From NCBI RefSeq assembly GCF_001421565.1, contig NZ_LMKQ01000001.1, positions 2,914,934 through 2,978,933 on the forward strand: a DNA stretch of 64,000 bases, written 5' to 3'. A program made the position numbers and the translations under genes. The notes below the pieces were generated by a model. That model ran no database searches. It was given only the letters and a program-made list of their open reading frames with translations, and was not told the origin of the DNA. Source of the stretch: Agromyces sp. Leaf222. GTDB taxonomy: Bacteria > Actinomycetota > Actinomycetes > Actinomycetales > Microbacteriaceae. Every line of letters begins with the position of its first letter. Position 1 is the stretch's first letter. Shown here piece by piece: positions 1 to 64,000 of the stretch.

Positions 1-196
1 CGCTGGCGAAGTCGCCTGCGGCGTGGCCGCCCATGCCGTCGGCGACGGAGAAGACCGGAGCCTGCGCGACGAAGCTGTCCTCGTTGACCTGGCGGCGGTG
101 GCCCGTGTCGGTCGCCGCGGCCCACGAGATCGTGATCCTCGTGCCGTCGGGCAGCACGATCGGATGACGGGTGTTGCCGTTTCCGATCTGTGTCAC
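1..196 (-). CDS. PP2C-family serine/threonine phosphatase, N-terminal part (truncated by window edge)
   Basis: Only the first 65 codons are inside the window; the gene continues past base 1. The translated start carries two hallmark PP2C pieces: RQVNEDSF near residues 33-40 and VADGMGGHAAGD near residues 51-62, the latter holding metal-binding aspartate and glycine residues. The family removes phosphate from Ser/Thr in cytosolic signalling proteins using two Mn/Mg ions. The GTG start overlaps the TGA stop of the upstream FHA gene by three bases (GTGA), so the two are probably translationally coupled. A PP2C-FHA pair usually belongs to a Ser/Thr kinase signalling locus, and a kinase gene might lie just outside the window. 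Family assignment is firm; the substrate is unknown. Confidence 0.93.
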   Translation of the reverse strand, partial: MTQIGNGNTRHPIVLPDGTRITISWAAATDTGHRRQVNEDSFVAQAPVFSVADGMGGHAAGDFAS

Positions 197-1302
197 GAGT
201 GGGGCCTGTCGGTTCGGGTCGGACGGGGTGCTTCGTCGCTGGCTGGGAGGACCTCGATGATCGTACCGTCTCCGAGGTCGAGGGAGCTGCCCGGCACGAC
301 GACGATCGATTCACCGGCGCGCATCCGACGCACGCCGGTCGACGTCCGGATCACGGTGCCGTTGGTCGAACGCAGGTCGGTCGCGACCAGTCGCTCGCCC
401 TGCACGCGGAGCTCGAGATGGGTGCCGGATATCACGCCGTTCGGCGAGCGAACGGGCACGAGCTCCGGCGCCGTCGCGGCCGCCGAGGGTGCGCGCGGCG
501 CGAGCGGACGCCGGCCGACCAGAATCGGCACCGTGACCGTCCTCGCGAGGCCGTACCCGATCCGCACCCTCGGAGGGGCGCCTGGAGCGAACGCGCTCGG
601 CGCGGCTTCGGACGTCGGCGCCTCCGGCCATCGGTCGGCGTCGGGATCCTGCTCGGCGTCCGCGCCGGACGCGAGCGCGACCGTGGCGTCGATCACCCCG
701 TCGCGGAGCACCGTGTCGGCGTCGCTCGTCGGCCCGCCACCGGCATCCGCTCGGCTCCCGACGATCTGGTCGACTGGCCGCTCGACGGCCCGCTCGACGG
801 CATGCTCGACGGGCGACCAGACGACGTCCGAGGCCCTGAGCCGGGCGCGCGCGGGTGCGATCGCGCCCGCCGCGACGCCGATCGTCGCACTGCTCGAGCG
901 CACCGGGGCGTCGGCGCCCGTCAACCGCACGCCGGTCACGTCGCGGAACTCGGCGAGGTGCCACGGGCGGATGCCTCGAGCGTCGAAGCGTCTCGACCCT
1001 CCGGGCGAGTCGAGGTCGACGACCGCGTCGCCCCGCACGACGGCCGTGACGATCTCGGTGCCGTCCCTCGGCCACAGCACCACGGCGAAACCGCGATCGT
1101 CGAGGTCCGCGGGGCCCACGGCCGGGATCGCCTGCACGAGTCGCTCGATGCTGACATCGGCGTCGCCCGTGACCGCGGCGAGTTCGGCGAGCGCCAACTC
1201 CTCGGCGGGGGCGGCGAGCACGGCGATGAACCGGTCGCCGATGACGACGTCCCAGTCCATCGCCCCGATGCGAGACGCGCTCGTCACGGTTCCGGCGACC
1301 AT
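193..1302 (-). CDS. FHA domain-containing protein
   Basis: About 369 residues. The last hundred form a forkhead-associated phosphothreonine-binding domain: VGRRP, then SPNGVISGTHLEL and DLRSTNGTVI, the usual GR..S..H and N-G-T elements of the fold. The first 130 residues are a separate acidic alpha/beta region I do not recognise. The middle (about 150-250) is Ala/Pro/Asp-rich and probably an unstructured linker. No membrane segment is seen. The domain would bind a Thr-phosphorylated partner, in keeping with the coupled PP2C phosphatase downstream. Start choice: ATG at 1302 is preceded by CAGACT six bases upstream, which fits a leaderless transcript; a GTG at 1317 in the same frame is the alternative. 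The aldehyde dehydrogenase gene ends nine bases upstream of that GTG on the same strand. Confidence 0.88.
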   Translation of the reverse strand: MVAGTVTSASRIGAMDWDVVIGDRFIAVLAAPAEELALAELAAVTGDADVSIERLVQAIPAVGPADLDDRGFAVVLWPRDGTEIVTAVVRGDAVVDLDSPGGSRRFDARGIRPWHLAEFRDVTGVRLTGADAPVRSSSATIGVAAGAIAPARARLRASDVVWSPVEHAVERAVERPVDQIVGSRADAGGGPTSDADTVLRDGVIDATVALASGADAEQDPDADRWPEAPTSEAAPSAFAPGAPPRVRIGYGLARTVTVPILVGRRPLAPRAPSAAATAPELVPVRSPNGVISGTHLELRVQGERLVATDLRSTNGTVIRTSTGVRRMRAGESIVVVPGSSLDLGDGTIIEVLPASDEAPRPTRTDRPHS

Positions 1303-1326
1303 GTGCCCAGTCTGCACCAGACCGGG

Positions 1327-2760
1327 TCAGCCGATCGCGCTCATCACGTGCTTGATGCGGGTGTAGTCCTCGAAACCGTAGTTCGAGAGGTCCTTGCCGT
1401 ACCCGGAGTGCTTGAACCCGCCGTGCGGCATGTCGGACACGAACGGGATGTGGGTGTTGATCCAGACGCAGCCGAAGTCGAGGTGCTTGGCGAACCGCAT
1501 GGCCCGCGTGTGCTCGGTCGTCCAGACCGACGAGGCGAGCGCGTAGTCGACGCCGTTCGCCTTCGCCAGCGCGTCGGCATCGTCGGTGAACGGCTGCACG
1601 GTCAGCACGGGACCGAAGATCTCGCGCTGCACGGCCTCGTCGTGCTGCTCGAGGCCCGTGACGATCGTCGCCTCCCAGAAGTAGCCGCGGTCGCCCTGGC
1701 GACGGCCGCCGGCGACGATCCGGGCATGGGCAGGCAGCCGATCGATGAACCCGGCGACCTGGGCGAGTTGGTTCGCGTTGTTCAGCGGCCCGTAGAGCAC
1801 GCCCTCCTCGCGTGGCCCGCCCGTTCGGGCATCGGATGCCGCGTGCGCGACGAGCAGTTCCACGAACCGGTCGTGCACCGACTCGTGCACGAGCACGCGC
1901 GTGGCTGCGGTGCAGTCCTGGCCGCCGTTGAAGTACGCGGCGGTGACGATGCCGGCGGCCGCCTGCTCGAGGTCGGCGTCGGCGAAGACGATCGCGGGCG
2001 CCTTGCCGCCGAGCTCGAGGTGCACGCGCTTGAGGTCGGAGGCCGCGGCGCGCGCGACCTCCATGCCGGCCCGCACCGACCCGGTGATCGCGACCATCTG
2101 GGCGCGATCGTGGCCGAGCACTGCGGCACCGGTGGTGCGGTCGCCGGTGACGACGTTCAGCACGCCGTTCGGCAGGAACTCCGCCGCGACCTCGGCGAGC
2201 AGGAGCGTGGCGAGCGGGGTCGTGTCCGAGGGCTTCAGCACGACCGTGTTGCCCGCGGCGATCGCCGGAGCGACCTTCCACACCGCCATGTTGAGCGGGT
2301 AGTTCCACGGCGTGACCTGGCCGATGACGCCGATCGGCTCGCGGCGGATGAACGAGGTGTGTCCGGCCAGGTACTCGGCGGAGGCCCGTCCCTCGAGGTT
2401 GCGAGCCGCGCCGGCGAAGAACCGCAGCTGGTCGACGGACTGCATGATCTCGTCCGCGACGAGGCTCGCCCGCGGCTTCCCGGTGTCCTGCGACTCGAGG
2501 TCGGCGAACTCCTCTGCCCGGTCCTGCATGGCATCGGCGATGCGGAACAGGGCGAGCTGACGTTCGGCCGGCGTCGTCTCGCCCCAGACCTCGAAGGCGT
2601 CGGATGCCGCGCGATACGCGTCTCGAACGTCCTCGTCGTTCGAGATCGGCGAGGTCGCGTAGACCTCCTCGGTCGCCGGATCGATGAGGTCCAGCGACGT
2701 CTCCCCGTGCGCCTCGGCGTACGCGCCGTCGATGAAGTTCCGTACGGGTGCTGTCGTCAT
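1327..2760 (-). CDS. aldehyde dehydrogenase, probable gamma-aminobutyraldehyde dehydrogenase
   Basis: 477 residues, the usual length for the NAD(P)-dependent aldehyde dehydrogenase superfamily. The catalytic set is complete: TPWNYPLN (150-157, oxyanion Asn), LELGGKAP with general base Glu249, GGQDCTAATR with nucleophile Cys283, and the EIFGPV motif near the C terminus. Overall it most resembles aminobutyraldehyde/betaine aldehyde dehydrogenases, which oxidise 4-aminobutanal to GABA in the cytosol. The context supports this: a class III aminotransferase and an FAD amine oxidase lie just across a divergent promoter with an Lrp regulator. The start at 2760 follows a good ribosome site (GAGGAG, about six bases upstream). 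The frame stays open further upstream, but that would run over the Lrp gene. The exact substrate is inferred. Confidence 0.9.
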   Translation of the reverse strand: MTTAPVRNFIDGAYAEAHGETSLDLIDPATEEVYATSPISNDEDVRDAYRAASDAFEVWGETTPAERQLALFRIADAMQDRAEEFADLESQDTGKPRASLVADEIMQSVDQLRFFAGAARNLEGRASAEYLAGHTSFIRREPIGVIGQVTPWNYPLNMAVWKVAPAIAAGNTVVLKPSDTTPLATLLLAEVAAEFLPNGVLNVVTGDRTTGAAVLGHDRAQMVAITGSVRAGMEVARAAASDLKRVHLELGGKAPAIVFADADLEQAAAGIVTAAYFNGGQDCTAATRVLVHESVHDRFVELLVAHAASDARTGGPREEGVLYGPLNNANQLAQVAGFIDRLPAHARIVAGGRRQGDRGYFWEATIVTGLEQHDEAVQREIFGPVLTVQPFTDDADALAKANGVDYALASSVWTTEHTRAMRFAKHLDFGCVWINTHIPFVSDMPHGGFKHSGYGKDLSNYGFEDYTRIKHVMSAIG

Positions 2761-7483: not shown

Positions 7484-7670
7484 GCGGCCAGCGTCGGGCA
7501 CCGCCGCAGGCTCGTCGCGGCCGCCAACCGACTTCCGGCCGAGGTTCGGATGCGGCCGCGCCTGTCGAGGACGAGTCGTCGAGCGTGGACCACCGCTCCT
7601 CCACAGCGCGCACCCGTCGACGAGGTCGCCCCATGTCCGATTCCCGCGAGTCGATGTCGGATGCCGCAGC

Positions 7671-7676
7671 TACGCT
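7671..7676 (+). promoter_or_regulatory. -10 box of a probable leaderless ogt transcript
   Basis: TACGCT (TANNNT type) ends six bases before the ogt ATG, with no Shine-Dalgarno between. That spacing places the transcription start at or next to the ATG. No clear -35 element is seen. The same geometry recurs at several genes in this window. Confidence 0.45.
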
Positions 7677-7682
7677 CGAACC

Positions 7683-8174
7683 ATGACCGACCTGTTCCTC
7701 GCACGACTCGAGAGCCCCATCGGGCGGCTCGAACTCCTCGCAGACGACGACGCCGTCACCTCCCTCTCCATCGAGCGCGACGGCGCGCTCCCCCACGATG
7801 GCGACGCCGAACACCGCAACGCCGTGCTCGACCTCGCGCTCACCCAGCTCCGCGAGTACTTCGCCGGAGCGCGCACCGACTTCGACGTGCCCGTGCGCCT
7901 CCACGGCACCGAGTTCCAGCGCGCGGTGTGGAGCCGCCTGCAACTCCTGCAGTGGGGTGACGCCACCTCGTACGGCGCGCTTGCCGCCGCGGTCGGCAAG
8001 CCCGGCTCCGCCCGTGCCATCGGTGGTGCAGTCGGCGCCAACCCGGTGCCGATCCTGGTCGGCTGCCACCGCGTACTCGCCTCCGACGGCCGAATCACCG
8101 GCTACTCGGCGGGCGAAGGCGTGCCCACGAAGCTCTGGCTCCTCGGGCACGAGCAGATCGGGTTCGCCGCGTGA
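7683..8174 (+). CDS. ogt: methylated-DNA--[protein]-cysteine S-methyltransferase
   Basis: 163 residues, typical for a single-domain O6-alkylguanine transferase, which transfers the alkyl group irreversibly to its own cysteine. The DNA-binding/active-site half is clear: TEFQRAVWSRL, the ATSYGALAAAVGKPGSARAIGGAVGANP helix-turn-helix with its arginine finger, then the acceptor Cys128. The residue before the cysteine is glycine (VGCHRV) rather than the usual proline of PCHRV. The Tyr/Gly-rich tail follows (GYSAG). The stop overlaps the GTG of the adjacent tag gene (GTGA), making a two-gene alkylation-repair operon. Confidence 0.93.
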   Translation: MTDLFLARLESPIGRLELLADDDAVTSLSIERDGALPHDGDAEHRNAVLDLALTQLREYFAGARTDFDVPVRLHGTEFQRAVWSRLQLLQWGDATSYGALAAAVGKPGSARAIGGAVGANPVPILVGCHRVLASDGRITGYSAGEGVPTKLWLLGHEQIGFAA

Positions 8175-8839
8175 GCGTGATCCCCCGCCCAGAGCTCATC
8201 CGGGGCGAAGACGACGCGGTGCGCTGCGGGTGGAGCGGCACCGATCCCGAGTACCGCCGCTATCACGACGAGGAATGGGGCACTCCGCAGCACGATCCCG
8301 TGCGACTGTTCGAGAAGGTCTGCCTCGAGGGATTCCAGGCCGGGCTCTCGTGGATCACCATCCTCCGCCGCCGTCCCGCGTTCCGAGAGGTGTTCCACGG
8401 CTTCGACGTCGAGCGGGTCGCGGCAATGGGCGAGACCGACGTGCTGCGGCTGCTCGGCGACGAGCGCATCATCAGGCATCGCGGCAAGATCGAGGCGACG
8501 ATCCAGAACGCTCGCGCGACCCTCGAGCTCGACCTGCCGATCGATCAGCTCATCTGGTCGTTCGCTCCCGAGCGTCGCCCGACAGCGCCGGCGACCTTCG
8601 CCGAGGTCCCGGCGGTGACGGCCGAGTCCACGGCGCTCAGCAAGGAGTTGCGTGCCCGCGGATTCCGGTTCGTCGGCCCGACCACGATGTACGCGCTCAT
8701 GCAGGCCGCCGGACTCGTCGACGATCACTTGGGCGGGTGCTTCCGCTCGACGGCTCACGCAGACGCGAATGCATCCGCAGACGCATCCGCAGACACCGCC
8801 ACAGCCGTCGACGACGCGGCAGCTCGACCGGTCGCGTAG
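8171..8839 (+). CDS. tag: DNA-3-methyladenine glycosylase I
   Basis: 222 residues. It matches the TAG family, which excises 3-methyladenine: RCGWSGTDPEYRRYHDEEWG at the N terminus (zinc Cys and the conserved catalytic-pocket region), GFQAGLSWITILRRR, and the C-terminal GFRFVGPTTMYALMQAAG followed by DHLGGCFR. His and Cys in the last segment complete the structural zinc site seen in the family. A family member of about 190 residues would end near there; the last 30 residues are an Ala/Asp/Ser-rich tail encoded by short imperfect DNA repeats (8758-8800). The GTG start overlaps the ogt stop. It is convergent with yaaA, 19 bases away. Confidence 0.95.
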   Translation: MSVIPRPELIRGEDDAVRCGWSGTDPEYRRYHDEEWGTPQHDPVRLFEKVCLEGFQAGLSWITILRRRPAFREVFHGFDVERVAAMGETDVLRLLGDERIIRHRGKIEATIQNARATLELDLPIDQLIWSFAPERRPTAPATFAEVPAVTAESTALSKELRARGFRFVGPTTMYALMQAAGLVDDHLGGCFRSTAHADANASADASADTATAVDDAAARPVA

Positions 8840-8858
8840 CGCCGGAGCATGAGGGCCG

Positions 8859-9617
8859 TCAGGCGACGAGATCGAGTTCGATCGGGGCGCCGGCGTTCGC
8901 CGCGCCGAACGCCATGGCGAACCCTTCGGCACCGGCCCAGTTCACGAGGTCCTCGACCGTGGCGAGATCGGGCCGGGTCTCGAGCAGCCGGCGTGTGAAG
9001 CGACCCTTGGCCTGTTTGTTGAAGTGGTTGAGTGCACGACGGCGTCCGCCGTCATCGACCGCGACGACGCGCACGAAGACGCTGCCGTCGCGAGCGGGTG
9101 CCGGGCCGATTTCGGCGTACGCCTCGGAGCGGAGGTCGACGACGAGGCCGTCGTACGACGCGATGCGCTGCGCGATCGCCTCTCGCCAGAAGCGCTTCAG
9201 CACCACGCCCGGAACCCGGGAGTCGTGCGAGAGGCGATACGCCGGAATCGGGTCCATGGCACCCACGAGGCCGAACAGCGCCGAGTGCACGACCACCGTC
9301 TCGCCGCCGAAGGCGCGTGCGTCGGCATCGAGCGTTCCGGCATCGAGGGCGTCGAAGAGCACTCCGGTGAACCGGTCGAGGGCTGGCATGGTGGGCGATG
9401 TCCGCAAGGCCAGGTTGTGCTCGACCTCGCCCGCCAATCGCGGACCGAGCTTCAGCGCACGCATCGCCGCAGGCTCATCGGCACTCAACGCCACGAGTCG
9501 GTCGGCGAGCTCGTTCCGCAGCGGCGAGAGTTCGGTGAACGACAGCTTCGACAGGTCGAGCGGCGCACCGACGCCACCCGCGCGCTTCGTCTCCGAAGGC
9601 GGCAGGAGGAACAGCAT
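8859..9617 (-). CDS. yaaA: YaaA-family peroxide stress protein
   Basis: 252 residues, matching the YaaA/DUF328 family: the opening MLFLLPPSETKR, then ALDRFTGVLFDALD, VVHSALFGLVGAMDPIPAYR, and the C-terminal LNHFNKQAKGRFTRRLLE block. In E. coli YaaA limits intracellular iron during peroxide stress and the fold binds DNA; a cytosolic protective role is inferred here. The start codon directly follows the stop of the P-loop kinase gene upstream (no gap), so the two are co-transcribed. A minor oddity is the large number of Ala/Arg/Asp substitutions typical of high-GC genomes. Confidence 0.93.
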   Translation of the reverse strand: MLFLLPPSETKRAGGVGAPLDLSKLSFTELSPLRNELADRLVALSADEPAAMRALKLGPRLAGEVEHNLALRTSPTMPALDRFTGVLFDALDAGTLDADARAFGGETVVVHSALFGLVGAMDPIPAYRLSHDSRVPGVVLKRFWREAIAQRIASYDGLVVDLRSEAYAEIGPAPARDGSVFVRVVAVDDGGRRRALNHFNKQAKGRFTRRLLETRPDLATVEDLVNWAGAEGFAMAFGAANAGAPIELDLVA

Positions 9618-10190
9618 CTACGATGCGAGGAACGCGAGCGTCGCGTCGACGTTCGCGCCCAGCGACTCGATGCTGTCGATCGACACGCGAGGAAGGGCCG
9701 AGGACGGCCCGGTCCAGGGCGCGTAGCCCTCGAGGCTCTGCTCGACGGCGCGCCAGGTCGTCTCTTCGAGATGCGGCAGGTTGCGCTCGCGCTTCGCGAG
9801 CCGGGACCGGTGCAGCGCTTCGTCGGAGCAGACGACCTCGACGACTCGAAGTCGCACCTCGGTGCGAACCGCGAGGTCACGCCACTGCAGGCGAGCCGCC
9901 TCACCGGCGTTCACCGCATCGACGATCACCGTTCGACCCGACGAGAGTTCCTTCTCGGCGATCTCTTCAGCAACGAGATAGGCCGCGAGCCCCGTGGGCT
10001 CACCGGCGTCGATTCCGGCCCGCAGAATCGCAGACTCGATCGGGTCGACCGACACGACGGTCGCCCCGAGCCGGGCGCCGACGATCTCGGCGATCGTCGA
10101 CTTCCCGGCTCCGGGCAGACCCGCCATGACGACGAGTTGCGTGATGGACAGCTCACCGAACTGTCGATCGAGCGGCTGCTCCCCCGGCAT
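9618..10190 (-). CDS. P-loop kinase-like ATPase (AAA_33/zeta-toxin-like fold)
   Basis: 190 residues. A Walker A motif GLPGAGKST sits near residues 24-32; SVDPIESAIL and VIVDAVNAG follow, then VEVVCSDEALHRSRLAKRER, an arginine-rich lid. This is the layout of small nucleoside/sugar kinase-like proteins that phosphorylate a small molecule with ATP. The substrate cannot be told. The ATG at 10190 lies only ten bases downstream of the atpC stop and yaaA follows directly, so this gene probably rides on ATP synthase operon read-through. No terminator is visible between atpC and this gene. Confidence 0.85.
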   Translation of the reverse strand: MPGEQPLDRQFGELSITQLVVMAGLPGAGKSTIAEIVGARLGATVVSVDPIESAILRAGIDAGEPTGLAAYLVAEEIAEKELSSGRTVIVDAVNAGEAARLQWRDLAVRTEVRLRVVEVVCSDEALHRSRLAKRERNLPHLEETTWRAVEQSLEGYAPWTGPSSALPRVSIDSIESLGANVDATLAFLAS

Positions 10191-10200
10191 CCGCTGAACC

Positions 10201-10461
10201 TCAGGCCAGTTCGGCGCGGGACGCGACGATCTGGACGGTGTTCGACTGCACCGAGAGGAAGCCGTCTTCGGCATTCGCGGTGATCTTCTCACCGTCGGGC
10301 AGGGACACCCGAACCTCTCCGGCGGCCAGGACCGCGAGCATCGGCTCGTGTCCCGGCAGGATGCCGATCTGGCCCTCGACCGTGCGAGCGACCACCATGG
10401 ACGCCTCGCCCGACCAGATCTCCCGGTCGGCCGAGACGACGCTCACCTTGAGTGCGGCCAT
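10201..10461 (-). CDS. atpC: F1Fo ATP synthase subunit epsilon (short form)
   Basis: 86 residues. It contains the complete N-terminal beta-sandwich of epsilon: KVSVVSADREIWSGEAS, GQIGILPGHEPMLAVL, then a glycine/aspartate turn and ISVQSNTVQI-like strands. The subunit links the rotor gamma to the c-ring. The C-terminal helical domain that inhibits hydrolysis in E. coli (about 50 residues) is absent, as in a number of actinobacteria. Last gene of the atp operon proper, three bases after atpD. Confidence 0.95.
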   Translation of the reverse strand: MAALKVSVVSADREIWSGEASMVVARTVEGQIGILPGHEPMLAVLAAGEVRVSLPDGEKITANAEDGFLSVQSNTVQIVASRAELA

Positions 10462-10463
10462 GC

Positions 10464-12841
<2,378 letters not shown>

Positions 12842-12888
12842 GTCTCTCCTGTAGTCCTAGAGTCGATCGATCAGTCGTGTCGAGGCGC

Positions 12889-14529
12889 TCAGCGCTTCGA
12901 CTTGACGACCTGCTCCTGGTTGACCGATTCGGCGTCGATCGGCTCGAACTGCTCCGAGCCGACGGATGCGAGCGGCTTGCCCTCTCCGGTCTGGAACTCG
13001 AGCTTGAACTTGTCGACCGAGGACTCGAGCGTCGCGACGGTCTCGTCGGACAGCACGTTGGTCTCGCGGAGGTCGCTGAGCACCGACGTGTTGCGACCGA
13101 GGAAGTCAAGGAGCTCGCGCTCGAAGCGCAGGATGTCCTCGACCGGGACCTCGTCGAGCTTGCCGTTCGTGCCGGCCCAGATCGAGACGACCTGCTCCTC
13201 GACGGGGTACGGCGAGTACTGCGGCTGCTTGAGCAGCTCGGTGAGGCGTGCGCCGCGAGCGAGCTGGCGACGGCTGGCCGCGTCGAGGTCGGACGCGAAC
13301 ATCGCGAACGCCTCGAGCGAGCGGTACTGCGCGAGCTCGAGCTTCAGCGTGCCGGAGACCTTCTTGATCGACTTCACCTGGGCGTCGCCACCGACACGCG
13401 ACACCGAGATGCCCACGTCGACCGCGGGACGCTGGTTGGCGTTGAAGAGGTCGGACTGGAGGAAGATCTGGCCGTCGGTGATCGAGATCACGTTGGTCGG
13501 GATGTAGGCCGACACGTCGTTCGCCTTGGTCTCGATGATCGGCAGGCCGGTCATCGAGCCCGCGCCGAGCTCGTCGGAGAGCTTCGCGCAACGCTCGAGC
13601 AGACGCGAGTGCAGGTAGAAGACGTCACCGGGGTACGCCTCGCGTCCCGGCGGACGACGGAGGAGCAGCGACACGGCACGGTAGGCCTCGGCCTGCTTCG
13701 ACAGGTCATCGAAGATGATGAGGACGTGCTTGGAGGCGTACATCCAGTGCTGGCCGATGGCCGAGCCGGTGTACGGGGCGAGGTACTTGAAGCCGGCGGG
13801 GTCGGAGGCCGGTGCCGCGACGATCGTCGTGTACTCCATGGCTCCGGCGTCTTCGAGGGCGCCCTTCACCGAGGCGATGGTCGAGCCCTTCTGGCCGATC
13901 GCGACGTAGATGCAGCGGACCTGCTTGTTGACGTCGCCGGACTCCCAGTTGGCCTTCTGGTTGATGATCGTGTCGATCGCGATGGCCGTCTTGCCGGTCT
14001 GGCGGTCGCCGATGATCAGCTGACGCTGGCCGCGGCCGACGGGGATCATGGCGTCGATCGCCTTGATGCCGGTCTGGAGCGGTTCGTGGACCGACTTGCG
14101 CTGCATGACGCCGGGAGCCTGGAGCTCGAGCGCGCGGCGGCCCTCGAGGCCCGTGATCTCGCCGAGGCCGTCGATCGGGTTGCCGAGCGGGTCGACGACG
14201 CGGCCGAGGTAGCCCTCTCCGACGGGGACCGAGAGGACCTCGCCGGTGCGGGTCACCTCCATGCCCGCCTCGATGCCGGTGAACTCTCCGAGGACGACGA
14301 CGCCGATCACGTCTTCCTCGAGGTTCAGCGCGAGACCGAGCGTGCCGTCCGCGAAGCGGATGAGCTCGTTGGCCATGACCGAGGGCAGTCCCTCGACGTG
14401 CGCGATGCCGTCGGCGGCGTCGGTGACGTATCCGACCTCGGTCTTCTGCGCCGTGCCCGGCTCGTAAGCCGAGGCGAACTCCGTGAGAGCCGTGCGGATC
14501 TCATCGGGGCTGATGGAGAGTTCTGCCAT
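12889..14529 (-). CDS. atpA: F1Fo ATP synthase subunit alpha
   Basis: 546 residues, the non-catalytic nucleotide-binding F1 subunit. The P-loop [11 protein letters not shown] lies near residue 170; downstream are [28 protein letters not shown] and [26 protein letters not shown]. The C-terminal extension after 505 ([13 protein letters not shown] onward) is usual for actinobacteria. Start: two ATGs lie at 14535 and 14529. The Shine-Dalgarno AAGGA is one base from the first and seven from the second, so 14529 is preferred. It follows atpH by about 100 bases, the longest gap in the F1 part of the operon. Confidence 0.97.
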
Positions 14530-14626
14530 TGCCATTTCCTTTTCTGAAGGGCCAGGCCCTTTTCTGTGCCGGAGGACCAGCTACTGGTGTGTCACGGCGC
14601 AGGACGCCGGTCGGTGTCGTCCGGCG

Positions 14627-15424
14627 TCAGCCGGCAAGCTTCTGCCTCAGCGAGCTGAGGCGCGAGGCGACGCTGCCGTCGATGACGTCGTCGCCGATCT
14701 GCACGCGGACCCCGCCGAGCACGGCGGGATCGACGATGGTGTCGAAACGGATGCGGCGACCGGCCTGAATGGCGAGTCCCTGCTCGAGTCGTGCCAGCTG
14801 CGCGTCGCTCAGCGGCACGGCGGTCGTGACCGTCGCGACATCGAATCCGCGCTGGTCGGCGATGACGGATGCTGCGCCGCGGAGCATCTCGCCGATGCGG
14901 CGACCGCGCGGCGAGAGCACCAGGTGACGCACGACGACCACGGTCGCCGGGTCGGACTTGCCCGAGCCGAGCAGCCGCTCGACGAGGCGGGCCTTCGGCT
15001 CGCTGGCACCGAGCTTGGAGCCGAGCACGAGCTCGAGCTCCGAGTCGGACGCGACGGCGCGCTCGAACGCGAAGAGTTCGGCGTCGAGGTCGACGCCCTC
15101 GCCCGCGGTGTCGGCCGCGACCCGGAAGCCCAGCTCCTCGACGCCGTCGAGGAAGTCGGCCTGGCTCGACCACCGCTGCGATGCCGCCGCCGTGAGCAGG
15201 GCCACCGCTCCGGGAGCGATGCGCCCGCCGAGCACGCTGGAAACCAGCGCGCTCTTCTGCGCGGCATCGGCTTCGTTGTCGGTGAGCGCGGTGCGCAGCT
15301 GACCGGAACCGGCGATGAGTCGAACGGCGGCGAGGAGGTCCTCGGCGACCGAAAGGTCGGCCTGGCCCGACGACGCGAGCGTGGCTCGCGACGCCGCCAG
15401 GGCCTCTCTCGTAGCGCTACCCAT
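14627..15424 (-). CDS. atpH: F1Fo ATP synthase subunit delta
   Basis: 265 residues, longer than the approximately 180 of E. coli delta but usual for actinobacteria, where an extra helical segment is inserted. It starts MGSATREALAASRATLA and ends with the diagnostic GGVRVQIGDDVIDGSVASRL, the signature of the peripheral-stalk delta subunit. It joins F1 alpha to the b subunit. It is a stand-alone delta, unlike the b-delta fusion of mycobacteria. The start lies three bases from the atpF stop. Confidence 0.96.
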   Translation of the reverse strand: MGSATREALAASRATLASSGQADLSVAEDLLAAVRLIAGSGQLRTALTDNEADAAQKSALVSSVLGGRIAPGAVALLTAAASQRWSSQADFLDGVEELGFRVAADTAGEGVDLDAELFAFERAVASDSELELVLGSKLGASEPKARLVERLLGSGKSDPATVVVVRHLVLSPRGRRIGEMLRGAASVIADQRGFDVATVTTAVPLSDAQLARLEQGLAIQAGRRIRFDTIVDPAVLGGVRVQIGDDVIDGSVASRLSSLRQKLAG

Positions 15425-51895: not shown

Positions 51896-51936
51896 GTCTG
51901 ACATACCGGCTCGCGGCATCCGAACCGGCGGGGCAT

Positions 51937-53358
51937 TCACCAGACGAGCGGATGCCGCGGCGCACGCCGCAGCCGACGCTCGAGCTGCGCCGCGAGCGCG
52001 AACAGCACCGCCTCGCCGCCGGGACGCCCGATGAGCTGGACGCCCATGGGCACGCCGGCCTCCGTGACCTCGACGGGCACCGTGATCGCCGGCAGCCCGG
52101 CGACGTTGACGAACGACGTGAACGGCGTCACCTGCACCTGCTGCGCGAAGTTGCGTTCGCCGTCGACCGCGTCGTACCAGCCGACGGCCGGCGGCGTGAG
52201 CGCGAGCGCGGGCGTGAGCACAGCGTCGTACGAGGCGAACCTCGTGATCACGCGCCGTTCGAAGTCCGACAGCCACGCGAGCGCCTCGGCGAGCTGCCTG
52301 GACGGCAGCGCACGTCCGCGATCGACGAGCCACTGCGTGAGCGGTTCCAGCAGTGCGAGCCGCTCGTCGTCGACGGGGATCGTCGCGGCCCCCGCCTGCC
52401 AGATCGTGCGGAACGCGTCGGGATACCCGGGCTCCGGCGCATCCGGAACCGCCTCGATGCCGTGCCGGCCGCCGTCGAGCACCGCGATGGCCCGATCGAG
52501 CGCGGAGCGCGCCTGGGGCGCGATCGTGATCTCGTACGCGTCGTCCCACGGCGTCTCGGTCATGACGCCGATCTGGAACCGCCCCTCGCCTCGGATCGCC
52601 TCGCCGAGGTACGGCCCGTCGTCGCCGGGCGCTCGAACCGCGTAGGCGTGCGCCGCCGGATACCCCGTCGGGGCGATCAGCCCGTCGAGGAGCAACGCGG
52701 CGTCGGCGACCGTGCGACCGATCGCCCCCACGACGCCGAGGCCGGCGAGCCCGCCGAGTCCGGAGCCGGACGGCACGCGACCGCGCGAGGGCTTGATGCC
52801 GACGAGGCCACACACCGCCGCGGGGATCCGGATCGATCCCCCGCCGTCGGAGCCGGGCGCGAACGGCAGCATGCCGGAGGCCACGGCCGCCGCCGCTCCT
52901 CCGCTCGACCCGCCGGCGCCGAGCGTCGGATCCCACGGATTGCGGGTCGGGCGCCCGACGAGCGCCTCGGTGTACGAGGGCAGGCCGAACTCGGGGGTCG
53001 CCGTCTTGCCGAGGCTGACCGCACCGGCGGCGTCGACGGCCAGCACGAGCTCGTCGGAGGCATCCGGCACGAAGCCCTCGAACGCCCGCGAGCCGAACGC
53101 GGCCGGCACGCCCTCTCGGCGGTGCAGGTCCTTGTCGGCGAGCGGCAGTCCCCAGAGCGGCGCGGGCTTCGGCACGTTGCGCGTGACGAACTCGGCGCGC
53201 TCGAGCGCGCGCTCGGGGGTCAGCGTCGCGAAGGCCGCCACCTGGGGGTCGAGGCGCTCGGCGCGTTCGAGGTAATGGCGGGTGAGCTCGACCGGCGACA
53301 CCTCCCCGCGTTGCAGCAGCTGGTGCAGTTCGAGGGCGGTGTGCTCGTGCAGGTCCAC
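51937..53358 (-). CDS. amidase (amidase signature family)
   Basis: 473 residues. Complete Ser-cisSer-Lys triad elements: Lys in GLPLADKDLHRR, LGAGGSSGGAAAAVASGM and GSDGGGSIRIPAA (nucleophile Ser). The C terminus has GLPAITVPVEVTEAGVPMGVQLIG. It hydrolyses amides such as short aliphatic amides, nitrile-derived amides or peptides; the substrate is not determined. The stop lies just upstream of the SIP promoter on the same strand. Divergent from the 53433 membrane gene. Confidence 0.94.
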   Translation of the reverse strand: MDLHEHTALELHQLLQRGEVSPVELTRHYLERAERLDPQVAAFATLTPERALERAEFVTRNVPKPAPLWGLPLADKDLHRREGVPAAFGSRAFEGFVPDASDELVLAVDAAGAVSLGKTATPEFGLPSYTEALVGRPTRNPWDPTLGAGGSSGGAAAAVASGMLPFAPGSDGGGSIRIPAAVCGLVGIKPSRGRVPSGSGLGGLAGLGVVGAIGRTVADAALLLDGLIAPTGYPAAHAYAVRAPGDDGPYLGEAIRGEGRFQIGVMTETPWDDAYEITIAPQARSALDRAIAVLDGGRHGIEAVPDAPEPGYPDAFRTIWQAGAATIPVDDERLALLEPLTQWLVDRGRALPSRQLAEALAWLSDFERRVITRFASYDAVLTPALALTPPAVGWYDAVDGERNFAQQVQVTPFTSFVNVAGLPAITVPVEVTEAGVPMGVQLIGRPGGEAVLFALAAQLERRLRRAPRHPLVW

Positions 53359-53432: not shown

Positions 53433-54080
53433 GTGGGCACGAACCGGGTCGCAACCAGGGTCACGACCTCGATCACGCGGCATCCGCTGGTCTGGGGCGT
53501 CGGGTGGAGCATCGTGTTCGGCGTCGCGCTCGTCGTCGCGGTCGGGCTCGACTGGCACGGACTGATCGACTGGCTCCTGATCTTCCTGCTCGTGCTGCCG
53601 TCGACGATCGCGACCGTGCTCGTGCTGGCGGCGACGCCCCGGTCGCATTTCGAGGCGATGAGCTCGGTGTTCTCGCACTTCCTCGTGCGCTACCTCGCCC
53701 TCGTGTTCGGCCTGGCCGCCTGGGGCCTCTCGGTGGTCGTCGGCGCGGCCATCTCGCAGTCGATCCAGCTCGCGGCCGAGCAGCGCGAGGATGAGATCAT
53801 CGGCATCGGGATCGACCTGATGCTCGTCGTCGTCCCGATCGTGGCCGCCGTGCTCTGGGGGGCGTTCGTGCTGCGGTGCGCGTGGTTCCTCGTGCGGGTC
53901 CGCGGTTGGGCCGAGGTGCCGACGGCCGACCGGGTGCCCGCGCACCTGCTCGGGACGAGACCGGCGCTGCGGCGGATCGTGGTCGGCCTCGCCCATCCCG
54001 TGCTCTTCGCGGTGACCGGCCTGGTCGTGGCGATCGCGGGGCCGTCGGCCGTCGGCGGCACCCTCGACATCACCCTCTGA
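53433..54080 (+). CDS. hypothetical integral membrane protein
   Basis: 215 residues (218 from ATG 53424). Four to five membrane helices: about 15-38, 40-60, 80-102, 120-140 and 185-208, with a short Glu-rich loop between helices 3 and 4 (AEQREDEIIG). No motif or family recognised. Start: the ATG at 53424 lies inside a TAGCAT box, while GTG 53433 follows that box by seven bases, so GTG with a leaderless mRNA is more likely. Confidence 0.75.
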   Translation: MGTNRVATRVTTSITRHPLVWGVGWSIVFGVALVVAVGLDWHGLIDWLLIFLLVLPSTIATVLVLAATPRSHFEAMSSVFSHFLVRYLALVFGLAAWGLSVVVGAAISQSIQLAAEQREDEIIGIGIDLMLVVVPIVAAVLWGAFVLRCAWFLVRVRGWAEVPTADRVPAHLLGTRPALRRIVVGLAHPVLFAVTGLVVAIAGPSAVGGTLDITL

Positions 54081-54766: not shown

Positions 54767-54794
54767 ATGGGCGGATGCCGCGGCATCCGCCCAT
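54767..54794. terminator. Terminator hairpin after ung (palindrome with GGATGCCGC pair)
   Basis: A perfect 28-base palindrome centred between 54780 and 54781; the two halves each carry GGATGCCGC/GCGGCATCC. It starts five bases after the ung stop, on the minus-strand 3' side. Confidence 0.8.
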
Positions 54795-56206: not shown

Positions 56207-56757
56207 GCGACCGACCCCGTCGCGCTCGCGGCCTGCGCCGCGGCATCCGGCACCTGCACCGGCGGCAGCGCCGACCACGGGAACACGATCCAGTCGTCGG
56301 TGCGCCGGTAGTCGAAGTCGGGCTCGAGCACCGTGTGCGACTTCGTGTAGAGCGTCGCGCTGCGCACGTCGGCGCCCGCGTCGCCCAGGATGGCGACGAC
56401 CTTGGCCAGCGTGCGGCCCGAGTCGGAGACGTCGTCGACGAGGAGCACGCGCTTGCCGCTGAGGGCGGGCGCATCGAGCATCGGCGGGTGCAGCACGGGC
56501 TCGGGCAGTCGCTCGTCGACGCCCGAGTAGAACTCCACGTTGATCGAGCCGCAGGCCTTGGTGCCGAGCGCATAGGCGATCGCACCGGCGAACAGCAGTC
56601 CCCCGCGCGCGATCGCGATGACCACGTCGGGCCGGAACCCGGAGCCGAGCACGTCGGCCGCGACCTGGCGCGAGGCCTCGGCGAAGTCGTCCCAGGTCAG
56701 GATCTCGCGGCGGATCCCGTCGTCGGCCGTGCCGGCGTCATTCGCATCGAAGGTCAT
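56203..56757 (-). CDS. phosphoribosyltransferase (hypoxanthine/xanthine-type family)
   Basis: 184 residues. PRPP-binding motif RVLLVDDVSDSGRTLA (about 104-119) and the N-terminal VVIAIARGGLLFAGAIAYAL loop. The YTKSHTVLEPDFDY hood is typical of xanthine/hypoxanthine-type purine salvage or of the putative PRTase family of actinobacteria. It forms a purine nucleotide from PRPP. A TACCCT box ends six bases before the ATG (leaderless type). First gene of the phosphoribosyltransferase-S51-ung run. Confidence 0.9.
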   Translation of the reverse strand: MTFDANDAGTADDGIRREILTWDDFAEASRQVAADVLGSGFRPDVVIAIARGGLLFAGAIAYALGTKACGSINVEFYSGVDERLPEPVLHPPMLDAPALSGKRVLLVDDVSDSGRTLAKVVAILGDAGADVRSATLYTKSHTVLEPDFDYRRTDDWIVFPWSALPPVQVPDAAAQAASATGSVA

Positions 56758-56827: not shown

Positions 56828-57610
56828 TCACCGTCCGGGCTCGCCGCTCCCCGCCTCGCCGTCGCCGAGCTCGACGTCCGCGGCATCCGCGATGAAGCCG
56901 CCTTCGGCCTCGGGCCTCGGCAGCCCGGTCTCGGGGTCGAGATGGACACGGTGCTGGCGCACCTGGCTCACGCGCTCGTTGATGTAGGAGATGATCGTCG
57001 CCGACGCGGTGCCGACGATGACGACGCCGCCGGCCATCAGGAAGACGGCGTAGAAGCGGCCCTCGGTCGTGACCGGGTACATGTCGCCGTAGCCGACCGT
57101 CGCGATCGTCACGATCGCCCACCAGATCGCATCGCCGAACGTCGTGATCGTCGCGCCCTCGGCGTACCGCTCGGCCTGCAGGGTCGCGAGGGCGATGAAG
57201 TACACGAAGACGATCGCGTAGCTCGCCGCGTAGATGACGATGTTCGCGCGCACCGCGGCGCCGCTCCGGCGCTGCAGGTAGGGCACCGCGTGCAGCAGCG
57301 TGAGCACCCGGAACGCACGGAACACGGGCACGAGGGCCGACAGCACGTCGATCGGGTGCGACCTGACGAACGCCCAGCGAGCGCCCTTCGGCGTGAGCAC
57401 GATGCGCACCGTGACATCGGCGACGAAGACGAGCCAGGCGAGCACGAGCGTCCAGAAGAGCACGGTGTCGGGCCCCCGCGGGATCGACGGGGTGAGCACG
57501 TACACCGAGTACGCGACGATGAACGCGACGCCGAGCACGACCAGCGGCATGGTCGTGCGACGCTCCCAGGCGATGCGCCTCGGAGCGTGGACCGGCGGCG
57601 CGGCGGCCAT
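56828..57610 (-). CDS. voltage-gated-type potassium channel
   Basis: 260 residues, six-helix Ion_trans fold: helices near 22-40, 50-70, 84-104 (S4-like with few arginines: Arg98, Arg101), 125-143, the pore helix plus TVGYGD selectivity filter (171-176), and 185-210. The short cytosolic C terminus ends without a recognisable RCK or CNBD domain. It lets potassium pass the inner membrane; gating is uncertain given the weak S4. It overlaps the SDR stop by ATGA. Confidence 0.93.
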   Translation of the reverse strand: MAAAPPVHAPRRIAWERRTTMPLVVLGVAFIVAYSVYVLTPSIPRGPDTVLFWTLVLAWLVFVADVTVRIVLTPKGARWAFVRSHPIDVLSALVPVFRAFRVLTLLHAVPYLQRRSGAAVRANIVIYAASYAIVFVYFIALATLQAERYAEGATITTFGDAIWWAIVTIATVGYGDMYPVTTEGRFYAVFLMAGGVVIVGTASATIISYINERVSQVRQHRVHLDPETGLPRPEAEGGFIADAADVELGDGEAGSGEPGR

Positions 57611-58392: not shown

Positions 58393-58537
58393 GCGCCCAT
58401 TCTGCCGTGCGACGAGCGGATGCCGCGCGCAGGCGTCGCGCCGTGCCGCGACGCATGGACGACCGGTCACCGGGTCGTGCCCCGGCGCACCCCGGCCTGC
58501 GACCGCACGCCGACCTGCGACATCCGGCGCTCTGCGC

Positions 58538-58549: not shown

Positions 58550-59650
58550 ATGCACCGCACCGGCCCGGCTCGACCTCAGACCAGGCGACGCGTGCCGCTC
58601 TGGGACAACGCCCGCTGGATCGCGATCACGCTCGTCGTGATCGGACACGGCATCCTGCCGTTGATCGCCGAGTCCGACAGCGCATACAGCGTCTACCTGT
58701 TCATCTACTCGTTCCACGTCGCCGTCTTCGTCACGGTCAGCGGGTACTTCGCGAAGTCCGGGCCGCCGAACGCGAAGGCGCTGCGGCAGATCATGACCGA
58801 CATCGTCTTCCCGTTCTTCATCTTCGAGACGATCTGGAGCCTCATCAAGTGGCTCCTCGGCGGCGAGTTCGCGCTCGACTTCACGACCGCGTCGTGGACC
58901 CTCTGGTTCCTCATCGCGCTCGCCGTGTGGCGCATCGTGCTGCCCTACCTCGTGCTGCTGCGATATCCGCTCATCATCGCGATCCTCATCTCCATCGGCG
59001 CGGGGTACACCGAGACGATCGACTCGACGCTCGCGCTCTCGCGCACGCTCGGCATGCTGCCCTTCTTCGTGTTCGGCTGGAAGCTGCGGCAGTGGCAGGT
59101 GACCGACCGCTGGCTCGACCTCCGACCGGCGGTGGCCTGGCGGTGGCGGGCGGGTGCGATCGCCCTGCTCGGCGTCGTGCTCGCGTTCATGCCCGCGACG
59201 ATCGAGACCCTGCGCGACCTGAAGCTGCGACGGTTCATGCTGTACGACGAGTCGTACCAGGCGATCGGCTACGACGAGCCGTGGTCGGGCGGCATCCGCC
59301 TCGTGCTGCTGCTCACCGCGATGCTGCTCACCGTCGCGTTCCTGCTGCTCATGCCGCGCGGAAAGCACTGGTTCACGGCCTTCGGCGGCGCGACGATGTA
59401 CATCTACCTGCTGCACACGTTCGTGCTCTATCCGTTCCGCGAGACGCCGGTGCTCGCGGGCGACCAGCCGTTCTGGGTGCTGCCGGCGATGATGCTGTTC
59501 TGCATCGGCCTCTCGATCGTGCTCGCGCTGAAACCGGTGCGGCGGGTGTTCCGCCCGCTGGTGCAGCCGCGAGCCCGCTGGCTCTTCCGGCCGGAGCCGT
59601 CGACCGCGACGGGCACGATCGTGCTGCCGCCGCTGCCCGACGAGCGCTGA
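58550..59650 (+). CDS. membrane acyltransferase (Acyltransferase_3 family)
   Basis: 366 residues with about ten membrane helices. The start PLWDNARWIAITLVVIGHGI contains the family's D-N-x-R and G-H motifs; also typical are FHVAVFVTVSGYFAKSG and MYIYLLHTFVLYPF. The family acetylates sugars of cell-wall or exported polymers in the inner membrane (fucose 4-O-acetylase group). The acceptor is unknown. It stands alone between the SDR and metY. Confidence 0.88.
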   Translation: MHRTGPARPQTRRRVPLWDNARWIAITLVVIGHGILPLIAESDSAYSVYLFIYSFHVAVFVTVSGYFAKSGPPNAKALRQIMTDIVFPFFIFETIWSLIKWLLGGEFALDFTTASWTLWFLIALAVWRIVLPYLVLLRYPLIIAILISIGAGYTETIDSTLALSRTLGMLPFFVFGWKLRQWQVTDRWLDLRPAVAWRWRAGAIALLGVVLAFMPATIETLRDLKLRRFMLYDESYQAIGYDEPWSGGIRLVLLLTAMLLTVAFLLLMPRGKHWFTAFGGATMYIYLLHTFVLYPFRETPVLAGDQPFWVLPAMMLFCIGLSIVLALKPVRRVFRPLVQPRARWLFRPEPSTATGTIVLPPLPDER

Positions 59651-61127: not shown

Positions 61128-61171
61128 ACGGCGGATGCCGCGGGCGAACGTTCGCCCGCGGCATCCGCCGT
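61128..61171. terminator. Perfect 44-base palindrome terminator after metY
   Basis: Perfect palindrome centred between 61149 and 61150, with GGATGCCGC (61133-61141) and GCGGCATCC inverted copies on each side. It is the longest hairpin in the window and separates metY from metX. Confidence 0.85.
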
Positions 61172-62555: not shown

Positions 62556-62615
62556 CGGACCGCCGCCCGGCTCCGGCCGGGTTCCGACCGTGACGCACAC
62601 CGATGAGGGGGTGCC

Positions 62616-63776
62616 GTGAAGCGCATCCACAAGGAACGCGACCGCCTGCTGCGACGTCTCACGCGCATCACCGGCCTCGCGGGAGCCATCGGCGCCTTCC
62701 TCTGCATCCTCGTTCCCGGAGCGGCGACCACGCCCGAGTTCGCGATCGCGGCGGCCATCTCGATCGTCCTCGCCGGGCTGCTCCTCGTGCACACCGCGCG
62801 GGGCTCGCTCGCCGCCGCACTCGGCGTCGTCGCGGCATCCGTCGCCCTCATCCTGACCCTCGGCGCCGCCCCGGTGCTCGACCCGGCCACCTCCACCGCC
62901 CTCGCCGTGACGGGCGGCGTCACCTCGGCCTCCGTCGCCGCGCCGCTCGTCGTGCGCCGGCGGGGCGTGCTGCTCGTCTGCGTGCTCGCGGCGGTGCTCA
63001 CCCTGTCGATCGCGACGGTCGCCGTCACCTCAGGGCATTCGATGATCGACGTGCTCGTGACGACCGTGACCGGCTGGGCGGCGCTGGCCGTGCTCGGCGC
63101 CTGGCTCGACAACGGCGTCCGCATCGCGGAGGCGCGCATCGGCGAGGTCGGTCGCGCGCACGAGGCCGAGCGCATCGCCAGCGAGCTCGAGGCGCAGCAG
63201 CGCCAGGATGCACGCGTGCTGCACGACACGGTGCTCGCGACGCTCTCGCTGCTCGCGCACTCCGGCGTCGGCGTCAGCGCCAACGCCCTTCGCGACCAGG
63301 CCGGCGACGACGCCCGCCTCCTTCGGCAGCTGCGCCTCGGCGTGCCCCTCGACAACGGGTCGAACGCGATCTTCTCGCCCGGCTCCGACGACGACCTGCT
63401 GAGCACGACGTTCGAGTCGGTGCGCCAGCGGTTCGTGCGCATGGGCCTCGACGTCGGCTGGCACGGCGCCGGCCAGCTGGTGCTGCCGAGGGAGACCCTC
63501 GACGCCCTCGTCGGCGCCCTCGGCGAGTGCCTCGAGAACGTGCGCCGCCACTCGGGCGTCACCGAGGCCGACGTCACCATCACCGACGACGAGCACACCG
63601 TGCGTGCCATGGTCACCGACGCGGGCGAGGGGTTCGAGCCCGACTCCGTCGACCCGGCCCGCCTCGGGTACGCCGAATCCGTGGTCGGCCGCCTGAACGC
63701 CGTCGGCGGCCGCGCACGCGTCTTCTCGTCGCCCGGGTCGGGCACGACCGTCATGCTGGAGGTGCCGAAGCCGTGA
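62616..63776 (+). CDS. sensor histidine kinase (NarL-type partner)
   Basis: 386 residues. Four to five membrane helices in the first 165 residues, a short coiled coil (175-200) and a phosphoacceptor region DARVLHDTVLATLSLL (His203, HisKA_3-like), then an ATPase domain with ECLENVRRHSGV (N box), VTDAGEGF (G1) and SSPGSGTTVML (G2). The tail lacks a separate sensory domain, so the signal is probably membrane-derived. The GTG start follows GAGGGGGT. The downstream gene overlaps the stop. Confidence 0.9.
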   Translation: MKRIHKERDRLLRRLTRITGLAGAIGAFLCILVPGAATTPEFAIAAAISIVLAGLLLVHTARGSLAAALGVVAASVALILTLGAAPVLDPATSTALAVTGGVTSASVAAPLVVRRRGVLLVCVLAAVLTLSIATVAVTSGHSMIDVLVTTVTGWAALAVLGAWLDNGVRIAEARIGEVGRAHEAERIASELEAQQRQDARVLHDTVLATLSLLAHSGVGVSANALRDQAGDDARLLRQLRLGVPLDNGSNAIFSPGSDDDLLSTTFESVRQRFVRMGLDVGWHGAGQLVLPRETLDALVGALGECLENVRRHSGVTEADVTITDDEHTVRAMVTDAGEGFEPDSVDPARLGYAESVVGRLNAVGGRARVFSSPGSGTTVMLEVPKP

Positions 63777-64000
63777 GCACCAGATCTCCGAGAACCGCCG
63801 CGACGATCGGCGAGCACTCGTTCCTGCGGCCCGCCCGGTCGGCCAGCGCGGCGAGCAACATCCGCTCGAGCCACGGGGGGCGCCGGCTCGCGATCGGCGC
63901 GACGATCGCCGCGGGCCTGCTCGTGCTCGGTCACCTCATCCGCGCCTTCGTGATGGCCCCCTACTTCCCGCCCGGACTCGGGCCGTGGCCCGGCTGGCTC
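63773..64000 (+). CDS. membrane protein downstream of the sensor kinase (truncated by window edge)
   Basis: First 76 residues only. The GTG start overlaps the kinase TGA (GTGA). Residues 1-40 are basic and polar, and one membrane helix spans about 42-62 (AIGATIAAGLLVLGHLIRAF). No family is recognised. It may be a transporter or a second membrane component of the kinase system; a response regulator would be expected nearby but is not seen in this fragment. Confidence 0.6.
   Translation, partial: MSTRSPRTAATIGEHSFLRPARSASAASNIRSSHGGRRLAIGATIAAGLLVLGHLIRAFVMAPYFPPGLGPWPGWL

Follow-up and report, generated by a model that had tools for sequence, protein, structure and literature searches.

A strongly over-represented nine-base word with dialects in Agromyces and other Microbacteriaceae, a possible self tag for DNA uptake

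Why should a single nine-base word be repeated many times over in an actinobacterial chromosome, both inside and outside genes? The question arose from a stretch of 64,000 nucleotides of Agromyces sp. Leaf222 (contig NZ_LMKQ01000001.1, positions 2,914,934 to 2,978,933; this whole stretch is referred to below as the window), for which the initial annotation, made by eye, had claimed about 45 copies of the 9-mer GGATGCCGC where about two were expected. Our count was 49 exact copies (24 on the plus strand and 25 on the minus strand), as compared with 2.4 ± 1.6 in 100 dinucleotide shuffles of the window (largest value, 7) and 3.6 under a third-order Markov model, and the word ranks top among the over-represented 9-mers of the window. 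The same excess was seen in the whole 4.43-Mb genome (4 contigs), which carries 3,222 copies (1,579 forward and 1,643 reverse; 0.73 per kb) versus 136 copies (61 forward and 75 reverse) of the reversed word used as a control. The Markov test, confined to 16 stretches of this genome (the window plus 15 others, 364 kb), gave 264 copies, with 21 (third-order) or 43 (fourth-order) expected.

Thirty-five of the 49 window copies fall within called genes. Two of the genic sites singled out earlier (37150 and 40083) were placed correctly, while those given as 41813 and 62843 actually lie at 41811 and 62832. All four of the inverted pairs proposed to form hairpins exist, at 19952/19977, 25573/25580, 54773/54780 and 61133/61158. 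The empty stretch reported over the ATP synthase genes is also real, although it runs from 7,668 to 17,338 and not to 17.8 kb, and it is common to relatives, as about 9 kb of orthologues contained 0, 0, 1, 2 and 2 copies. The copies of GGATGCCGC in the window, with the strand of the word and, for genes, the coordinates and strand of the gene, are:

1834..1842, plus, gene 1327-2814(-), GCG-GCA-TCC frame
2602..2610, plus, gene 1327-2814(-), GCG-GCA-TCC frame
7659..7667, plus, non-coding or gene edge
7668..17338, no strand, word-free stretch, ATP synthase genes and neighbours
17339..17347, minus, gene 17295-17765(-)
17846..17854, minus, gene 17746-19113(-), GAT-GCC-GC frame
18690..18698, plus, gene 17746-19113(-)
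19140..19148, plus, gene 19110-19889(-), GCG-GCA-TCC frame
19952..19960, plus, inverted pair (hairpin), arm 1, non-coding
19977..19985, minus, inverted pair (hairpin), arm 2, non-coding
20817..20825, minus, gene 20015-20860(-), GAT-GCC-GC frame
20929..20937, plus, gene 20866-21810(-), GCG-GCA-TCC frame
21425..21433, minus, gene 20866-21810(-), GAT-GCC-GC frame
22995..23003, plus, non-coding or gene edge
23734..23742, minus, gene 23052-23888(-), GAT-GCC-GC frame
23918..23926, minus, non-coding or gene edge
25332..25340, minus, gene 24970-25548(+)
25573..25581, plus, perfect 16-bp palindrome, half 1, between convergent genes
25580..25588, minus, perfect 16-bp palindrome, half 2, between convergent genes
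25849..25857, plus, gene 25642-26718(-), GCG-GCA-TCC frame
28439..28447, plus, gene 26726-28936(-), GCG-GCA-TCC frame
29780..29788, plus, gene 29195-30154(-), GCG-GCA-TCC frame
33737..33745, plus, gene 32552-33976(-), GCG-GCA-TCC frame
35284..35292, minus, non-coding or gene edge
35688..35696, plus, gene 35370-37043(-), GCG-GCA-TCC frame
37150..37158, minus, gene 37129-37725(+), GCG-GCA-TCC frame
37240..37248, minus, gene 37129-37725(+), GCG-GCA-TCC frame
37416..37424, plus, gene 37129-37725(+), GAT-GCC-GC frame
38097..38105, plus, gene 37832-38959(+)
38811..38819, minus, gene 37832-38959(+)
39836..39844, plus, gene 39753-40625(+), GAT-GCC-GC frame
40083..40091, minus, gene 39753-40625(+), GCG-GCA-TCC frame
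40202..40210, plus, gene 39753-40625(+), GAT-GCC-GC frame
41348..41356, plus, gene 40761-42797(+), GAT-GCC-GC frame
41811..41819, minus, gene 40761-42797(+), GCG-GCA-TCC frame
42607..42615, minus, gene 40761-42797(+)
44236..44244, minus, gene 43764-44639(+)
48983..48991, plus, gene 48696-49781(-)
51913..51921, minus, non-coding or gene edge
51950..51958, plus, gene 51937-53358(-)
53477..53485, minus, gene 53424-54080(+)
54773..54781, plus, perfect 16-bp palindrome, half 1, non-coding
54780..54788, minus, perfect 16-bp palindrome, half 2
56240..56248, minus, gene 56203-56757(-), GAT-GCC-GC frame
56880..56888, minus, gene 56828-57610(-), GAT-GCC-GC frame
58418..58426, plus, non-coding or gene edge
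59289..59297, minus, gene 58592-59650(+)
61133..61141, plus, inverted pair (hairpin), arm 1, non-coding
61158..61166, minus, inverted pair (hairpin), arm 2, non-coding
62832..62840, minus, gene 62616-63776(+), GCG-GCA-TCC frame

Is the word demanded by the proteins or by the DNA? In 321 of 322 genes (one gene with a masked base was left out), 206 genic copies were observed, versus 24.5 ± 4.4 (maximum, 37) in 200 rounds of synonymous-codon shuffling, so the excess at synonymous sites survives control for both amino acids and codons. Neither a Markov-like frequency nor a lack of synonymous-site excess, the two outcomes put forward earlier as contrary to a real signal, was observed. The two reading frames proposed for the genic copies, GAT-GCC-GC (80 copies) and GCG-GCA-TCC (81 copies), together hold 161 of the 206, and a third frame holds 28. 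As claimed, GAT and GCA are locally minor codons (890 GAT versus 6,089 GAC; 1,032 GCA among 15,390 Ala codons). The encoded tripeptides are themselves raised (Asp-Ala-Ala, 207 versus 142 expected; Ala-Ala-Ser, 195 versus 122 expected), and no excess was seen for the reversed tripeptides AAD (131) and SAA (112).

How well the word is kept was read from five Agromyces species, in each of which 57 to 60 of the 61 window genes have a syntenic orthologue (reciprocal best hit). Exact copies were retained in 22 of 31 cases in G026 (all other 9-mers, 43%), 17 of 30 in G008 (40%), 19 of 32 in G028 (30%), 9 of 25 in G030 (24%) and 9 of 27 in G009 (24%). GCA codons were kept above background when inside the word in all five species, from the near species G026 (9/10 inside versus 46/145 outside, P = 0.0004) through G008 (9/9 versus 41/141, P = 3e-5), G028 (7/11 versus 31/131, P = 0.009) and G030 (5/9 versus 17/115, P = 0.009) to the farther species G009 (7/8 versus 16/110, P = 3e-5). 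GAT codons pointed in the same direction with few cases (G026, 8/9 versus 44/90, P = 0.03), and GCC codons in the word were no better kept in two farther species (2/5 and 1/3). The synonymous shuffle and the codon upkeep argue, with very high confidence and as well as sequence allows, that selection or drive acts on the DNA and not on the protein, as had been suggested initially.

The word extends beyond nine bases, as C precedes it in 90% and G follows it in 81% of the copies in the 364 kb, giving a full form of about CGGATGCCGCG. One-mismatch forms (444 kb, 319 copies) were at background for positions 3 and 4, 1.2 to 1.4 times expected for positions 1, 2, 5 and 7 (0.96 to 1.42 times background for positions 1-5 overall), and 2.1, 4.9 and 2.6 times expected for positions 6, 8 and 9. 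Because the near-miss excess lies mainly at the last three of these positions, the left half of the word is strict and the right half looser. The near-miss-rich half is the one in which the GGATG dialects described below vary, and 393 copies of CGGATGCCTC in the same genome (reversed form, 6) are consistent with a looser right half. A second over-represented word, CGGACTC, was considered as another tag and rejected; it is read as codon use because 192 of its 210 copies are genic and its flanks are codon-periodic.

How are the copies arranged? The density of GGATGCCGC is 0.63 per kb in genes and 1.48 per kb in intergenic regions, where it amounts to 3.4 per kb between convergent genes (18 sites), 1.77 between tandem genes (37 sites) and 0.98 between divergent genes (10 sites). 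Among 36 close pairs (less than 60 bases apart), the plus-minus orientation prevails with 27, as compared with 6 minus-plus and 3 same-strand pairs, and in 14 of the 27 the two copies share two bases. There are 14 perfect palindromes GGATGCCGCGGCATCC where 0.06 would be expected; eight are genic, all in one frame (Asp-Ala-Ala-Ala-Ser), and six are intergenic. No strand heterogeneity was found across the 16 stretches, the origin not being located (138 plus, 126 minus; chi-square 11.05, P = 0.75). Thirty genes lie in the two 20-kb stretches with the fewest copies (6 and 7), and the ten of these that were scanned comprise polA, an S1-domain gene, uvrB, uvrA, smc and two signal recognition particle (SRP) GTPase genes, plus amylase, luciferase-like and DUF885 genes. 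We therefore rejected the idea that the poor stretches are mobile islands, as seven of the ten scanned genes belong to housekeeping families, three to others, and none of the ten to a mobile-element family. A low density thus seems to be explained by constraint on the proteins, and not by foreign DNA.

The word is not confined to one species. GGATGCCGC is enriched in 36 of 36 genomes of the same genus (681 to 3,217 copies; controls, 74 to 153); among the 199 Microbacteriaceae genomes counted, our own included, the others range from background to 2,858; and in 23 genomes from other families of the order it reaches at most about 3.5 times the reversed-word control. When 40 kb was sampled per genome in 38 members of the family (5 genomes of Agromyces and 33 of other genera), different words came out in different groups: GGATGCTGT in g23, GGATGCGCC in g42, GTGGATGCG in g70, AGGAGGCGC in g57, TCCTGCGCC in g26, and a GGATCC-type word in g56 and g106. 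Alternative words were seen even within Agromyces (GGATGCCTC, GGATGACGC and GGATGCCCC). Most spellings share GGATG, while AGGAGGCGC, TCCTGCGCC and the GGATCC-type words depart from this core, and no clear word was visible by eye in at least 11 samples (G073, G222, G235, G083, G069, G076, G110, G228, G178, G127 and G080).

Three of these words, GGATGCTGT, AGGAGGCGC and CGGATGCCTC, were counted genome-wide. GGATGCTGT occurs 1,080 times in G143 and 882 times in G205, and at most 165 times in the 197 other family genomes; G060, the third g23 genome, has only 87 copies of it but 1,751 of GGATGCCGC. AGGAGGCGC occurs 1,079, 1,612 and 1,474 times in three g57 genomes (controls, 283, 162 and 135) and 522 times in G114 (control, 325), and CGGATGCCTC occurs 70 to 1,196 times in 37 Agromyces genomes (control, at most 6). 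Genic dialect words exceeded the means of 60 synonymous shuffles each in G205 (18 versus 0.7), G004 (26 versus 0.8), G168 (18 versus 4.5), G093 (26 versus 5.2), G145 (14 versus 2.0), G176 (13 versus 1.4), G158 (12 versus 1.5) and G005 (13 versus 4.0), although, except for the words counted genome-wide, this excess is inflated because the words were chosen from the same samples. The corresponding values were 18 versus 1.4 for G060, which carries our word, and 3 versus 1.2 for the word-poor G073; G143 and G069 were excluded, as the gene caller predicted no genes in their samples.

GGATCC with a flanking C or G was in excess in G093 (L053, L054) and G221 (L238, L239), which might reflect either a dialect or a restriction-modification cause. 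The overlapping words of G185 (L083, L084), including CCCAAATCAA and ATCAAGGAGT at 7 copies each in 40 kb, are no dialect of GGATGCCGC and are perhaps an intergenic repeat.

The palindrome CGGATGCCGCGGCATCCG was found in at least 119 stretches of the genome contig collection; among the matches listed, 113 of 119 presumably belong to Microbacteriaceae, judging from the genera in the record titles, and 6 lie outside. It was absent from the viral contig collection searched. Seven Microbacterium phages contain 17 copies of GGATGCCGC in 255 kb (control, 10; 0, 8, 0, 1, 5, 1 and 2 per phage), as compared with 0.34 to 0.78 per kb in seven named Microbacterium genomes, an indirect comparison because these genomes are not those of the phages' own hosts.

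Which known system does the word resemble most? The DNA uptake sequences (DUS) of Neisseriaceae are the closest known kind: the relevant parts of PMC3630211 describe a short word repeated thousands of times, genic copies, terminator-linked inverted pairs, dialects sharing a core, and some genomes without an obvious DUS word. Comparable features occur here, with the inverted pairs lying near gene ends and possibly at terminators. The differences are that: our word occurs in monoderm Actinobacteria, in which an uptake bias and a ComP-like receptor are hypothetical; in 14 of its 27 plus-minus pairs the copies share two bases, whereas paired DUS, in the same parts of that paper, do not overlap except in one arrangement of Simonsiella muelleri (PMC3630211); and very conserved genes are word-poor here. 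The uptake signal sequences (USS) of Pasteurellaceae are likewise abundant self words with dialects, in an unrelated sequence and another phylum, and their receptor is only predicted, as a type IV minor pilin, in the portion of PMC12616744 concerned, a study of protein-word coevolution in that family. The resemblance to DNA uptake sequences in general is circumstantial. The comparison with DUS made in the initial annotation was supported to this extent by dialects, inverted pairs, strand symmetry and competence genes, while the very conserved genes and the pairs in the dialect samples tell against it (below).

Competence genes, which the initial annotation had advised looking for, are indeed present by homology. 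comEA (SLBB and helix-hairpin-helix domains) adjoins comEC (L254), and there are two tad loci, the first (L255) with T2SSE, T2SSF, TadE and TadE/G-like matches, and the second (L256) with T2SSE and T2SSF matches, a TadE match below the cut-off and a DUF4244 protein that we read, by eye, as a Flp-like pilin. The T2SSE cut-off was passed by three proteins in the genome, namely the two Tad ATPases and a PilB-like ATPase. Transformation of Micrococcus luteus requires comEA/comEC. It needs both tad loci as well, with tadB partly dispensable (PMC4322843), and the M. luteus parts are of the same kinds as those of our genome: comEA, comEC and two separate tad loci, of which one carries a short Flp-like pilin (by eye) and the other TadE/TadG-like proteins. 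The term "uptake sequence" was absent from the two M. luteus papers searched.

What, then, might the word be for? We regard it as about an even call that GGATGCCGC is a DNA-uptake-sequence-like self tag, with dialects, for natural transformation. This reading gains circumstantial support from the dialects, the inverted pairs, the density between convergent genes, the strand symmetry, the few copies in most of the sampled phages and the competence genes. The fuller proposal, to which we give slightly under an even chance, is that Microbacteriaceae independently evolved sequence-specific uptake with species dialects, using GGATG-type tags repeated thousands of times per genome and a Tad-pilus/ComEA/ComEC machine with a putative receptor, so that exchange is steered to kin and species become isolated. 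In such a scheme: the competence machinery (comEA-comEC and the two Tad/Flp loci) would include a putative DNA receptor, at the cell surface or in the envelope, with a preference for word-bearing DNA; fragments holding the word would be taken up and recombined more often; such biased exchange would, over generations, push the word into places that protein and regulation tolerate; inverted pairs would settle downstream of genes, where a hairpin role is also possible; and a changed receptor specificity would give new spellings in other species, with sexual isolation.

Several observations weigh against an uptake tag. To our knowledge, no uptake sequence is known in monoderms. The reversed-word control is lenient, and four non-actinobacterial genomes, chosen because each holds one palindrome, reach 1.6 to 5.4 times this control (word versus reversed: Stutzerimonas, 161 versus 102; Cupriavidus, 478 versus 132; a Verrucomicrobiota metagenome-assembled genome (MAG), 434 versus 106; Massilia, 383 versus 71). 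Very conserved genes (more than 87% identity) are word-poor, the 15 such genes having 2 sites between them (0.13 per kb) as compared with 0.63 to 0.70 per kb below 87% identity (57 window genes in the comparison). DUS in Neisseria are reportedly common in genome-maintenance genes; here, in a small sample of four such genes, polA, uvrA and uvrB have no copy of GGATGCCGC and smc has one. In two of the seven phages the word is not scarce (8 copies in 53 kb and 5 in 17 kb). In the samples with other dialects, which are small, the plus-minus orientation accounts for only 4 of 14 close pairs. Our GGATGCCGC sites were kept at only 2 of 15 aligned positions in G004 and 2 of 15 in G005, two other-dialect Agromyces, these being counts without a background rate. 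Conversion between dialects in place was rejected, as 0 of the 15 sites now read GGATGCCTC in G004, and 12 aligned GGATGCCTC sites of G004 correspond in our genome to the same word once and to GGATGCCGC never. The candidate reader is no clearer: ComEC is present in 195 of 199 family genomes, word-rich or not, and, being nearly universal, does not explain which genomes carry the word; type II/IV secretion ATPase counts (nine candidates per genome) show no clean pattern with it by eye; and ComEA, considered as the reader, showed among 18 relatives plus our own (G164 gave no match) no residue that clearly tracks the dialect by eye.

The most serious competitor, itself rather unlikely in our judgement, is a chromosome word unrelated to uptake, to which a nucleoid, repair or replication protein would bind, or which a methylation-linked process would use; a nucleoid or repair role was among the options raised at the outset, and may still apply. 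The model for this is HIP1 (highly iterated palindrome 1) of cyanobacteria, a palindromic octamer, GCGATCGC, that is genome-wide, genic and intergenic, and strand-symmetric. Our word is likewise genome-wide, genic and intergenic, and strand-symmetric, although it is another word and not palindromic. A HIP1-like word would also fit the abundance in and between genes, the strand symmetry and the palindromic pairs, and the distribution of ComEC does not discriminate between the two. However, a core chromosome protein would less readily account for spellings that differ between species of one genus, or for a word that is scarce in very conserved genes.

It seems improbable that the word is a recombination hotspot of the Chi type or a KOPS-like (FtsK-orienting polar sequence) segregation motif. 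Such words are also short, over-represented and species-variable, but Chi and KOPS words are oriented relative to replication, and the homogeneous strands over the 16 stretches (origin not located), together with the near-equal genome-wide strand counts, disfavour this polarity and with it the segregation option of the initial annotation; inverted pairs, moreover, are favoured in our genome. We give still less weight to a functionless mutation or repair bias, which would act on DNA rather than on protein, as observed, yet would not account readily for the near-background near-misses at positions 1-5, for GCA and GAT codons of the word being kept in relatives above the same codons elsewhere, or for a density that varies with gene arrangement. 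That the word owes its abundance to protein use, codon use or chance is hardly credible: most genic copies do lie in three reading frames, but the synonymous shuffle, the higher density outside genes and the small excess in the 23 genomes from the rest of the order speak against it.

In the open-access full-text literature searched, no paper on such a word in Microbacteriaceae was recognised by its title or the start of its abstract, and none of the listed matches to the bare octamer had a title concerning such a word. Uptake words have been described in two Gram-negative families only, in the literature examined, including parts of PMC3630211 and PMC12616744. If the uptake reading is true, Gram-positive Actinobacteria would supply a separate instance, rich in dialects within a single family, and such self-recognition would be shown to evolve repeatedly; these common soil and plant bacteria would be predicted to be naturally transformable; and the joint change of a receptor and its target sites, in their thousands across the genome, could be tested directly. 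If the word is not for uptake, the family still holds a very strong genome-wide DNA signal in search of a reader.

Some minor observations may be added. The gene for the PilB-like ATPase stands alone at L253:17489-19159(-), next to rpoC, and a cluster close to it includes WXG100-like and large FtsK/EssC-like proteins (so labelled by eye); a PADLOC scan of this protein and one window protein gave two weak matches only. The palindrome CGGATGCCGCGGCATCCG was also found in Cryobacterium, Salinibacterium, Galbitalea, Agreia and Leifsonia (L092, L096, L162, L184, L185 and L187), in whose genomes the 9-mer GGATGCCGC occurs 443 to 1,702 times. A Dermatophilaceae MAG (G282, L201), titled outside Microbacteriaceae, has 795 copies versus 75 reversed, which may mean either that the genome was misbinned or that the word is more widespread. 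Finally, a 465-kb Microbacterium sp. record titled plasmid (L141) carries the palindrome plus 7 copies in 8 kb, so large extra replicons may carry the word as well.

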